Source of the DNA: an uncultured Chitinophaga sp.
GTDB taxonomy: Bacteria > Bacteroidota > Bacteroidia > Chitinophagales > Chitinophagaceae
DNA length: 64,000 nt
Direction: 5' to 3'
NCBI RefSeq assembly: GCF_902168175.1
Contig: NZ_CABHOU010000041.1
Coordinates: 84,010 to 148,009 of the forward strand
Shown here: positions 34,712 through 61,852 of the stretch, piece after piece
Position numbering within the stretch: position 1 is the stretch's first letter
Layout of the letters: each line of letters opens with the position of its first letter
Made by a program: the position numbers and the translations under genes
The notes under the pieces: generated by a model
What the model was told of the DNA's origin: nothing
Databases searched by the model: none
The model's input: only the letters and a program-made list of their open reading frames with translations

Positions 34712-34748
34712 AAAGAGGGACGGTGTATATACCGCCCCTCTTTTTTTA
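34712..34748 (+). terminator. Terminator hairpin after the rhamnosidase gene, stem built on the CGGTGTATA(TA)CCG motif
   Basis: aaagagggacggt-gtatat-accgcccctcttt followed by a T run. Confidence 0.75.
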
Positions 34749-42348: not shown

Positions 42349-42921
42349 TTATTGGATGCCGGGCAGGTCGTCCTTATTATCCCTGAAATACCGGATCATG
42401 GTGCCGTAATCGAATTTCCGGGTAAGGCCTGTCAGCGACTGGGCAATCCTTTTTGCCTTGGTTTGTTCCGTTTTCGCGCTTTCTATCCACTTCAAAAAGT
42501 ATTCCCGGTGCGATCGGGTCAGGCTGTTAAAAAATGCAAGGGCTTCTGGTTCATCCTCTAAACACATCATAAATTCCGGCGATTTGATCGGCTCAGGGTT
42601 CGTGTCCGCTTCGAGCTGCACCGTAATTTTATCCCCCTTCCTTTTACCCGTACCTTTCCGCATTGCCGCGTTGATGGGCAACATAAAATCCCCCTCCCCA
42701 ATGGGCAGTAACGCCACTGCCTCAATCGCAAAGTCGTCCATCAACCCCTTTACCCGAAACGACTTTTTACTGCCCCCGCTTATCTGGCTGGCCACCTGAG
42801 CCGGGATAATAATAAACGTCCAGCCGGTTTTATCGCCGCCGCGTTCGTCCTTTTTGATGATGGTGTTGTACTTGATCATATGGCGGGTTAAACTTAGGTA
42901 TTTTATGGAAATTGTTCGCAT
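42349..42921 (-). CDS. DUF1905 plus YdeI/OmpD-associated domain protein
   Basis: GWTFIIIPAQVASQI...LPINAAMRKGTGKRKGDKITVQLEAD (DUF1905-like); EALAFFNSLTRSHREYFLKWIESAKTEQTKAKRIAQSLTGL (YdeI/OmpD-associated-like). Start may be internal (MIKYNTIIKK). Confidence 0.8.
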   Translation of the reverse strand: MRTISIKYLSLTRHMIKYNTIIKKDERGGDKTGWTFIIIPAQVASQISGGSKKSFRVKGLMDDFAIEAVALLPIGEGDFMLPINAAMRKGTGKRKGDKITVQLEADTNPEPIKSPEFMMCLEDEPEALAFFNSLTRSHREYFLKWIESAKTEQTKAKRIAQSLTGLTRKFDYGTMIRYFRDNKDDLPGIQ

Positions 42922-42960
42922 AGTTATAAAAAGGGGGGACAGGCGGAAGTACTATTATTC

Positions 42961-43122
42961 GGCCGCCGTTGTGTCACTCCCTTCAGCGGCAACTCCCTGG
43001 GTGATGCCCGCTAACGCGGGCATACAATAGAATAATAGGCGTAAGTAGGGAGCTTTCGTTGCAATGAAATGTCGTACCGCCTACAAACCTAAAAGTCACT
43101 CCTTTCACCGGCCGTAACAACA
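42961..43122. repeat. Composite dispersed repeat: two 18-bp direct arms flanking a 104-bp structured core
   Basis: Arms gtcactcccttcagcggc (42973-42990) and gtcactcctttcaccggc (43095-43112), 16/18 identical. Outer flanks match 61813-61852; internal hairpin atgcccgc-taac-gcgggcat (43004-43023). Confidence 0.7.
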
Positions 43123-43180
43123 TTGGACATATAAACTTCTATCCACCCCTTGCTCAATAGCAGTGTCGCAATCACACCCG

Positions 43181-43395
43181 CATGTCTAAAACATGCTTCA
43201 CCGTCCGCTCATCCTCCGCTTCACCATGCTCTCACCATACTTCGTGCATACTTGCAGCATCCTTTATACATCCTTTATAGGTTACCCGTAGTTAACCCAG
43301 GTTTAAGCCATAGATATTCCATTCCTTTTAAGATATGGCTCATATATGGGACATATATGGCTTAGATATGACTCATATATGGGACATCTCTAAAG
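43181..43395. repeat. Diverged tandem array with 11-bp period
   Basis: Successive 11-mers: CATGTCTAAAA, CATGCTTCACC, GTCCGCTCATC, CTCCGCTTCAC, CATGCTCTCAC, CATACTTCGTG, CATACTTGCAG, CATCCTTTATA, CATCCTTTATA. Later, after a phase shift: AAGATATGGCT, CATATATGGGA, CATATATGGCT, TAGATATGACT, CATATATGGGA, CATCTCTAAAG. Confidence 0.8.
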
Positions 43396-44081
43396 GACCC
43401 CTACAGGATGCACGATACATCCATGAAGAATGGACGTTCAGAAGTGAGGTTTTCATCAACAGGGACATAACAGATAGCATTTTACCATTTGTGCCTGAAC
43501 TACCGCCGGTGTATAAATGGCGTATGCCGTACACATAGTTCGTAAATCCTTACCAGACGCAGCCTTCATGCTTTATCGATTAAGCAATGTTTGCTAGATA
43601 AGATCTTAACAAAATTTTGTGAAAAGGTTAAAATCGGCGTACTCCATGTTAAAAATTGCGTATATTGAACGACAAAGGAATTCTAAGTTTACCTTAAATG
43701 TATAAATGACAATTAATGTCCGAAAGGAATCAACCAATGGTTACGAGAAAATAGCAACATTCCACACAAGATTTGTAAATCGATTGCAATAGACGAATAG
43801 GTATAACACGTTAAAAACTGAAATCAAAGTAGAAGTAAGCAGAAAAGACTCGGCCGGCTGCGGGCTGAATCTGACACTAATCGAACCTTTCACGGAGAAA
43901 ACATCGTTATGAAGAGATTAATCGTCCCTTAATTTCCCCGTCGACCAAACGCAGAAAAGAGAATTCTGAGCATTCCCTGCCTGGATTGCCGTCATCAAAC
44001 TGATGTTTGGAGATGGTGTGCCCTGAAGCGCCTGCCAGTACCTGAAATGAAATCATTTATCTAATAATACCACGTGCCATT

Positions 44082-47000
44082 ATGAAGCTGTGTTTACCAA
44101 AAACTGCTCCTTACCGTTTCTTACTCATGTCGGCGATGGGCATCGCCGCTGTGCCACTGGCATCTACCGTAAGCCGCGCTGCTAACAGCATTGCTGCTAC
44201 GGAAATGGCAGTACGACAAGATTCGGCTACCTTTTATGGGGGCGTTCTTACCGACGATAAGGACGTACCTATTGCGGACGCTACACTTAAAGTAAGGCGT
44301 TCGGGCTTTACCGCGCAAACAGATGCCGGTGGCAATTTCAAACTCAATGGCCTCAGGGGCGATGCTGTAGATGTAAGTTACGGCAATGCCTTCCTGGCTA
44401 CATTTGTATTGGGTAATGAAAGCAGCGTACGTTTTGCAATCAGTTCCCGCAATCTTGCGCTTAACCGTATTAAACCAGTGCGCTTCAGCAACCTGGTTAC
44501 TGCCGCCCCGCATCTTACCGCCGCTTCTACCCAGGCGGTGTATACAGATGATATTGCCCGTATGACGGTGCCTTCGTTAAAGAACGCACTGGTAGGTCAG
44601 TTCGCCGGACTTATTACCAATCAAAGCTCTGGTCAGCCGGGTTACGACGAGGTGTCGTTCCAGGTGCGCGGCCGTTCGCCTATTGTATTGGTTGATGGTG
44701 TTCCCCGTCCGGTAACAACTTTCGACCTGGAAGAAATAGAATCGGTTACGCTGCTTAAAGATGCACTGGCTACTGCTATGCTGGGCGTCAGAGGTTCGAA
44801 CGGCGCACTGCTCGTGTCTACCCGTAAAGGTACACCCAGCCGCCAGCAGATATCTTTCACCGCACAAACGGCTTTCCAGAAACCAATGGGTTTGCCGGAA
44901 GGCCTGAACGCTTTCAATTTCGCTACGCTTTATAACGAAGCAAGGGCTAACGAAGGTTTGTCGCCGGTGTATACAGCTGACGACCTGCAGAAATATAAAG
45001 ACCATTCCTCTCCTTTCACCCACCCGGATGTAAACTGGGCAGACCAGGTGCTGCGTAAGTCATCGCGCTTCGACCGTTATACGTTAACGGCAAGGGGCGG
45101 TAATAAATTCGCACGTTACTTCGTGGCGCTGGAGCACTTTAACCAGACGGGCGTTTTCAAAACCCTGGACAGTAACCGCTACAGCACCAACACGGAATCT
45201 AAAAGTTATGTGATCCGCTCTAATGTGGACATCAACGTGACCTCTAAGATCACTACCGGCATTAACCTGCTGGGCAGGATATGGACGGTGAACGAACCCG
45301 GATCTACCAGTCCTACCGTTGTTGCAGCGGTTACGAACACACCTAACAACGCTTACCCTGTTACGAACGTAAACGGTACGCCAGGTGCTTCGCAGCAGTT
45401 CCAGAATAACGTATGGATCGAGTCTACCGGCCGCGGTTACCGCAATAACTACCGCCGCGACATTATGGCCGACGTGTACCTGAAACGTACGCTTGATGAA
45501 GTAACGCCGGGCCTTTGGGTAAAAGGTATGCTGGCTTACTATTCTGCCGCGTCGGAATGGATTATGAGGACTAAAACACAGGCGTCGTTTAAAATGAATA
45601 TCTCACCTGCCGGCGATACCAGTTACCAGCAGTTCAGCACCAACTCCACGATGGGTAACAGTAACAGTATGGAGTATGTTCGCCGTTCTACTTACCTCGA
45701 AGGATCGATCGGTTACAACCGCGTGTTCAACAATACACATGGTATAGATGCGGTAGTACTGGTGAACAACGATGCACAGGTAACAGATGGCGACCTGCCC
45801 TACATCATTTTTGGAGGTAGTGCAAGGGTGGCGTACAACTACAAACAGAAGTACGTGCTGGAAGGTACGCTGGGCATCAACGGTTCTAACCGTTACCCAC
45901 CGGATGGTGATTATAAATACGGCACTTTCCCTGCTGTAGGCGCCGCCTGGAACCTCGACCGCGAAGATTTCATGAAAAGCGTTCCATGGATCACTACCCT
46001 TAAACTGTTTACTTCTTATGGTAAAACAGGTTGGGATAACCCGGGGTACTTCTCCTACATCCAGCGTTACTTCGATGGCCCTAACGTGTACTTTGGTACC
46101 AGTGCCGGCGGTGTGTTAACAATGGTGGAGCAGCCTTTGGCGAACGAAAATATCACTTTCGAGAAAGCGAAGAAATTTAACGTTGGTATACAAACCGCAT
46201 TGTTCAACAACCGGTTGGGCTTTAGCGCCGAAGTGTACGACAATAAGTTTTATGACATGCTGATGGTGAAGGGCAGGAACACTACTATCCTGGGTAACAC
46301 TTATCCTTCAGAAAATATCGGCCGTTACCGTTACAGTGGTTTGGATGCAAATCTGAACTGGCGCGAAACACGCGGCAAATTCTCTTACTACGTGAATGTG
46401 AACGGTGGTGTAATTAACACCGTATCCCAGTATACAGATGAAGTATACCGCGAGTACGACTGGATGCGCACCAGTGGCCGTATGATCGGTCAGCGTTTCG
46501 GATATAAATCCGACGGATTGTTCCAGACGATCGATGAAATTAAAACCTCTCCAACGGTACAGGGTTACAACCCGCAGCCCGGCGATATCAAATATAAAGA
46601 CCTCAACGGCGATGGTGTAATTAACCAGTTCGACGTTGCCCCTATCGGTGTTCAGAAACCAACAATAAGCCTTGGTTTTAGCCTGGGCGCTAACTGGAAT
46701 GGTTTCGACTTCAATGCACTGCTGCAAGGTTTGGTAAACCGTGACTATTACCTCGACCAGTATTATTACGAGTTCCAGGGTAATGGTTTTAACCAGGCCT
46801 ACAGTCAGCACCTCGGCCGCTGGACGCCGGCTACTGCTGCTACAGCTACTTATCCCCGCCTGAGCCTCGATAACAATATCAATAACGAAGCGGCTTCAGA
46901 TTACTGGCTGCGCAGTGGTAACTACATGCGTTTGAAAAGCATAGAGCTGGGTTATTCGCTGCCGGCATCGGTGATTAAAAGGGTAAGACTTACTTCCGCC

Positions 47001-58743: not shown

Positions 58744-60465
58744 TTAAAACAGGAAATACCTTTGTGCCAGCGCCACTTCTTTAGCAGGCTCACAGGTGAT
58801 CTTTACACCATCCACCTTCACCTCGTAGTTCTCCGGGTTTACAGATATTTCGGGCGTTTTGTCATTATGGATCAAATCCTTTTTACCAATGTTGCGGCAA
58901 TCACTTACAGGCAGCAGTTGCTTCTGCAAGCCGTATTCCAGCGCGATATTGTTTTTAATGGCCGCCTGCGATACGAAGGTAACGCTGCTATGCAGTGCCG
59001 CCTTTCCATGCGCACCGAACATATGCCTGTAAATAACTGGTTGCGGTGTTGGGATAGAAGCGTTGGGATCGCCCATACGACTGGCGGTGATCATACCGCC
59101 TTTAATGATCATCTCCGGTTTTACGCCGAAGAAGGCCGGTTTCCATAATACGATATCGGCCAGTTTGCCTGGTTCTATCGACCCTACATGTTTGGCAATG
59201 CCTTGTGCGATAGCCGCGTTGATTGTGTATTTGGCAACGTAACGTTTCACGCGCAGGTTATCGTTATCCTTTCCCTCATCTTCCGGTAATGCACCGCGTT
59301 GTTTCTTCATTTTATCGGCCGTTTGCCAGGTGCGCGTAATTACTTCGCTCACCCTGCCCATGGCCTGCGAGTCGGAACTCATGATGCTGAATACGCCCAT
59401 GTCGTGCAGGATATCTTCGGCTGCAATGGTTTCCGGGCGAATGCGCGAATCAGCGAAGGCCACATCTTCCGGTACGCGTTTGTCCAGGTGATGGCAAACC
59501 ATCAGCATATCGAGATGCTCGTCAATCGTATTGATCGTATAGGGACGTGTAGGATTTGTTGATGCCGGCAATACGTTGGGGTATTGCGCCGCACGGATAA
59601 TGTCCGGCGCGTGCCCGCCACCGGCGCCTTCTGTATGAAAGGTATGTATCACGCGACCGTTGATGGCCTTCATTGTATCTTCCAGGAAGCCGCCTTCATT
59701 CAGGGTGTCGGTATGGATAGCGATCTGGACGTCCATTTTATCGGCCACGTTCAGTGCGGCGTCTATTACGGCCGGAGTGCTGCCCCAGTCTTCGTGTATC
59801 TTCAGTCCCAGTGCGCCTGCTTCTATCTGTTCGGTAAGTGGTGGTTCGGTAGAACAGTTGCCTTTGCCGAAAAAGCCGAGGTTCATAGGGTAAGCTTCGG
59901 CGGCCTGCAGCATACGCATGATATTCCATTTGCCGGGTGTAACGGTCGTGGCGCTGGTACCATCTGCGGGCCCCGTGCCCCCACCGATCATAGTGGTAAT
60001 ACCACTGAACAGTGCATGGTCTATTTGCTGCGGACAAATAAAATGAATGTGGGTATCAATACCGCCTGCGGTAGCAATCAGGTTGCTGCCATTATGTACT
60101 TCAGTGGCAGCACCTATGATCATATTATGATGCACGCCATCCATCGTATCGGGATTGCCCGCCTGGCCAATGCCAACTATCTTACCTTCCTTAATACCGA
60201 TATCGGCCTTTACAATGCCCCAGTGGTCGATAATGATCACGTTGGTGATCAGGAAGTCGAGTACACCGTCTGCACGTAACGCGGTGCTGGACTGTGCCAT
60301 GCCATCGCGCACACTTTTACCACCGCCGAACTTACATTCGTCGCCGTAAACGTTATAGTCTTTTTCTATTTCGATGATCAGTTCTGTATCCGCCAGTCTT
60401 ACGCGATCGCCCACGGTGGGGCCGTACATGCTGGCGTATTTCGCTTTAGGTATTTTCAGGCTCAT
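58744..60465 (-). CDS. ureC: Urease subunit alpha
   Basis: [101 protein letters not shown]. Confidence 0.98.
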
Positions 60466-61812: not shown

Positions 61813-61852
61813 GGCCGCCGCTGTGTCACTCCCTTCAGCGGCCGTAACAACA
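61813..61852. repeat. Solo-like copy of the 42961-43122 repeat (left and right ends fused, core absent)
   Basis: ggccgccgctgtgtcactcccttcagcggc is 29/30 identical to 42961-42990. It runs on into cgtaacaaca, giving cggccgtaacaaca identical to 43109-43122. Confidence 0.8.

Follow-up and report, generated by a model that had tools for sequence, protein, structure and literature searches.

REP/BIME palindromic repeats are targets of the IS elements IS1397, ISKpn1 and ISPsy8 (IS3 family) and IS621 (PMC1525189). Bacterial interspersed repeats are usually defined by their sequence; in the repeat described here, from a 64,000-nucleotide stretch of an uncultured Chitinophaga sp. (the window), what is kept is the spacing, one helical turn, and it is tied to the IS that targets the repeat. 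We regard the window copy as probably belonging to a dispersed, non-coding, non-autonomous Chitinophaga element with an 11-bp array at its core, which serves one IS3 clade as a landing pad and partly as a passenger. The closest parallel would be the entry of IS1397/ISKpn1 and other IS elements into REP palindromes: in both cases dispersed intergenic, often palindromic repeats are entered specifically by IS3-family elements and form mosaics with other repeat modules. REPs, however, are 20-40 bp long with a sequence fixed per species, whereas the arrays combine a constant 11-bp step with unrelated units and a variable copy number. One component of the element, R1, resembles REPs in its size, palindromic ends and copy density (Table 1), unlike the 11-bp array, which varies in length and sequence. 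R1 also occurs at window position 61817; of 28 R1 cases, 10 have a strong array on the 3′ side and none has one on the 5′ side. A RAYT (Y1) transposase, the associated enzyme of REP/BIMEs, was considered as the mover of R1 and rejected; the one Y1_Tnp match in this genome has no R1, R2 or T motif (see below) near it.

Short non-autonomous, non-coding elements with an IS-like end resemble the present one in being present or absent between species, but here there is a single IS-type end with an 11-bp array opposite and no clean target duplication. In place of the two terminal inverted repeats of a MITE, most arrays have one IS3-type end, the T motif, beside them, and the window copy contains neither T nor an IS. 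Chitinophaga sedimenti has the site without the insert, but no clean duplication was identified at the window copy. With VNTRs or minisatellites the arrays share head-to-tail tandem units, copy-number changes by whole units and drift along the array, but they occupy many dispersed loci, have a common period and not a common sequence, and are linked to an IS end. IS911-type insertion takes place beside terminal-repeat-like sequences; here too an IS3-family element inserts near a resident IS-end-like sequence (T), but it does so inside the array or at its edge, in unit phase, and not solely beside T. CRISPR arrays, with their repeats of 21-50 bp, unique spacers and Cas genes, are no match for 11-bp units without spacers. 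By the tests made, the arrays qualify as neither REPs nor MITEs, though in part they behave like both. We found nothing in the open literature searched on intergenic or dispersed repeats, 11-bp arrays or IS targeting in Chitinophaga, and an earlier description is possible.

The sequence-only reading had claimed a diverged, non-coding tandem array of strict 11-bp period upstream of a SusC gene, with units that drift while the spacing is held, and these claims stand. Over 43170-43395, the strongest lag-11 stretch within the window, the self-match at lag 11 is 0.544, compared with 0.264 ± 0.029 in dinucleotide shuffles (z = 9.6; 0/5000), and it is 0.40 at both lag 22 and lag 33; the top value over lags 5-44 in any of 1000 shuffles was 0.41. 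Each of three parts of the stretch is separately periodic at lag 11 (z = 6.7, 4.5 and 5.4). Tandem Repeats Finder (TRF), a check which that reading had proposed, reports period 11 at two sites inside the array (43258-43279 and 43333-43382). No ORF of at least 80 aa was found across 42922-44081, and the drift along the array is satellite-like. The first two "units" that had been cut from 43181 onward turned out not to be array units. They are the stem-loop of a conserved leader, R2, whose arms and loop (GCATG-TCTAAAA-CATGC) occupy 43181-43195 (CATGTCTAAAA/CATG) and vary by 1 bp among copies; the true 11-bp units of the window copy begin near 43200. A phase shift had also been noted before 43330. 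The shift is present, at 43324-43329, but comparison with sister copies, in which CTTTAAAG stands at this place, flanked by two inverted arms of 11-bp units, identifies it as the apex of a fold-back (hairpin).

Table 1. Features of the window copy and its surroundings (positions in the window)
Feature	Position	Strand	Basis or remark
DNA absent from C. sedimenti between the same gene pair (insert)	42905..43560, borders ± about 20 bp	.	collinear alignment to G110 C1:3866978-3869249
R1 (GGCCGCCGTTGTGTCACTCCCTTCAGCGGC), a short, dispersed, REP-like palindromic repeat	42961..42990	+	about 26 copies per 800 kb
Perfect small hairpin TGCCCGCTAACGCGGGCA	43005..43022	.	sequence
Second R1-like copy, degenerate	43091..43126	+	sequence
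R2: leader TGTCGCAATCACACCCGC and stem-loop GCATGTCTAAAACATGC	43164..43196	+	conserved in 38 copies of own genome
Direct array, 11-bp units of CCGTCCGCTCA, CCATACTCTCA and CATCCTTTATA types	43200..43279	+	TRF, autocorrelation
R3 left arm, fold-back array, four degenerate 11-bp units	43280..43323	+	comparison of copies
Fold-back apex (the phase shift)	43324..43329	.	comparison with copies having an intact CTTTAAAG apex
R3 right arm, six 11-bp units of type ATATGGGACAT	43330..43395	+	TRF, comparison of copies
Conserved non-coding block before the SusC gene, outside the element	43571..43671	+	77% identity to C. sedimenti

The array is real, but the sequence-only reading missed the dozens of dispersed copies and the genus-wide, IS-associated class to which it belongs. 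The 6.65-Mb genome holds about 50 matches to the stretch, and the aligned copies are mosaics of R1, R2, a direct and a fold-back (R3) array of 11-bp units and, in part of the copies, the T motif. The R2 leader has no match among 99 relatives; R3-type arrays occur in 14 of the 100 genomes searched (one genome per species), all of them Chitinophaga and 13 of them besides this one. In the nearest relative found, C. sedimenti KCTC 52590 (G110), whose flanking genes share 72% DNA identity, the same two genes are adjacent, about 600 bp is absent and the block before SusC is kept. Because the insert is absent there and the SusC block is retained, the element was gained or lost as a whole and does not belong to a conserved SusCD control region. 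Between genes it is either there in full or missing; it occurs in many copies and changes length by whole 11-bp units. A slipped-strand switch controlling the SusCD operon at 44082, one of the roles proposed from the sequence, is hardly credible at this locus. A tandem array does precede the SusC start by about 690 bp, but this is far from the start codon and outside the promoter/start region that an array in a phase-variable promoter occupies; C. sedimenti keeps the gene order at the orthologous locus, with SusC and its conserved upstream block but no array; and sister copies lie across the whole genome. Intrinsic curvature, also proposed, found no support in a wedge model with parameters from general knowledge (p = 0.23). 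A phased protein-binding array, another role named there, is possible.

What stays constant in the arrays is their 11-bp step, close to one helical turn; the unit sequence varies. The 38 R2 copies are followed through CCGCT units, 1-6 per copy, and 71 of 71 spacings are exactly 11, copies within one genome being related and not independent observations. Two unselected 400-kb blocks of this genome hold 11 intergenic arrays at lag 11 and 6 at lag 22, and 400 kb of C. sedimenti holds 8 at lag 11; at lags 10, 12 and 13 there are none in either sample. Intergenic lag-11 arrays were likewise absent from two other Chitinophaga samples (200 kb each) and from three other families (100 kb each). Within this genome alone the units ATACGGGACAT, CTAGGTTCATT, CTGCCCTTAAA and CCGTCCGCTCA are unrelated to one another, and in the genus the spacing is kept by unit families that are unrelated to one another, of which at least 15-20 were counted by eye beside T motifs. 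A neutral 11-bp satellite is a serious possibility, though we think it probably wrong: one old tandem repeat would have drifted through concerted evolution, the step would be historical and unselected, and the IS would merely exploit the arrays. It accommodates the likeness of adjacent units, the change of copy number by whole units and a gene context near background (3 convergent, 8 tandem and 8 divergent, against 45, 179 and 86), but not the retention of 11 by many unrelated unit families with none at 10, 12 or 13 across the scanned stretches, nor the insertion of the IS in phase with the unit. We hold it to be quite unlikely that the arrays are phased binding sites for a host nucleoid or chromosome-organising protein acting independently of the IS. 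Their absence from the two same-genus samples and the three other families, the gain or loss at a locus shared by two related species and the strong tie to IS3 ends all argue against such a protein, for which one-turn spacing across many sequences and the dispersed, intergenic sites would speak.

The T motif TCCTGNTATAGGTTTACACY forms the terminal repeat of an IS3-family element and, in many species, adjoins arrays. Over the 100 bp that precede T, the lag-11 match is 0.53, with every lag other than 11, 22 and 33 at 0.21-0.27; a second, partly overlapping locus set gives 0.51 at lag 11. At 38 of 48 distinct T loci the array ends at most 67 bp from T. Solitary T motifs correspond to the right end of the IS3 clade, and the end-core subterminal repeats are about 33 bp (3 × 11) apart, as read in L316. 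Array and solitary IS3-type end have spread as one unit in several species. In G040 and G019 the array, a linker and T are dispersed together, with one copy lacking exactly one 11-bp unit and another carrying exactly one extra 33-bp T unit. Outside the genus T is sporadic; among the loci seen there, arrays accompany it in a single genome, which belongs to the same family. IS21 was rejected as the owner of T: no IS21-like istB was present among the PF01695 matches in five genomes, which cover only parts of the model and which we take to be DnaA/DnaB-type ATPases. AT phasing anchored on T was also set aside as weak (p 0.04, from loci that are not independent). We note that two loci of one genome (L136 and L145, G003) carry a perfect 11-bp array of CGGTGTAGACC on the inner side of T, with at least seven identical units, which suggests a recent expansion. 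At another locus an open frame (L117:1660-1950) lies just 3′ of T; we take it to be like the C-terminal part of a Fic-type protein.

The arrays are the preferred insertion site of the IS3 clade, which enters at a fixed unit position, in one orientation and with a 3-bp target duplication. In one genome (G103), T occurs in nine inverted pairs 1459 bp apart, which are the ends of an IS3-family element with OrfA and OrfB (profile NF033516, E 1.4e-70). The features of the family are present, namely an OrfA helix-turn-helix (HTH; a weak match), an OrfB DDE integrase, terminal inverted repeats and target duplications within the 3-4 bp range. All nine IS copies lie in 11-bp hairpins, at a distance from the dyad of 44 bp (six copies), 55 bp (one) or 43 bp (two), and have 3-bp duplications ATC or TAT. 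In a second genome (G115), the five copies examined all lie in or at arrays of CTGCCCTTCGT; one splits a 27-unit array into 17 + 10 with a TGC duplication, which is common to three copies. The orientation of the IS relative to the unit is identical in all 14 copies from these two genomes. A flanking match of 0.70 or more at lag 11 occurs in 22 of 30 clade copies, drawn from 13 genomes, versus one of 30 at any control lag. The remaining eight have no array and T is mostly array-free outside the genus, so the arrays are not required by the IS.

A structured RNA or a transcription terminator, in which the arms form a hairpin in the transcript, is very unlikely to explain the arrays. The arms of the hairpins co-change between copies in G103, and 25 of the 48 T-linked arrays have more stable folds than their shuffles (z < -2), both as expected of an RNA hairpin. 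About half of the T-linked arrays fold poorly, however, and the folding energy has no strand asymmetry (25/48), from which it follows that RNA structure is not the invariant; a hairpin with G-U bias was discarded for the same lack of asymmetry. A terminator role was dropped with the gene context near background and convergent gene pairs not enriched for arrays, and the sole Rfam match of the window lies elsewhere.

For the landing-pad element that we favor, the 11-bp step would be held by a multimeric DNA-binding protein that contacts one unit after another along the same helical face, with the IS3 OrfA/OrfAB transposase as the likeliest candidate. Arrays could grow and shrink through slippage or unequal exchange, and copies that carry the solitary end T would be spread by the transposase acting on it in trans. 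The window copy, itself without T or IS, would owe its assignment as a landing pad to sister copies such as L009 and L013, which run on into T at contig ends. A bolder proposal, which we make tentatively and consider unlikely to hold, is a transposition system that reads the period of DNA and not its sequence: the IS3 clade and the repeats would be tied together by the 11-bp step, with unit sequences free and spacing, phase and insertion orientation fixed.

The arrays offer a natural test of how IS3 transposases pick palindromic or repeated targets, a question since IS1397 and the REPs, and they bear on the origin and spread of bacterial satellites. Such arrays should not be taken as local regulatory switches. 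They also bear on why Chitinophaga assemblies break at such sites. Three contigs of G000 (C38, C9 and C33, at loci L009, L013 and L014) end about 60-170 bp from T beside R3 arrays; because they end there, the elements or their IS are probably the cause of these three breaks.

Two further sequences of the window were noted. An 18-bp palindrome, GGCGGTGTATACACCGCC, occurs with close variants at 34719, 34783, 41101 and 55397, and at about 14 sites per 800 kb of this genome; it is possibly an operator or another REP-like repeat. The Rfam match is to 5_ureB_sRNA (55.7 bits) at 60015-60309, antisense to a 573-aa ORF (58744-60465), and probably reflects conserved coding sequence.
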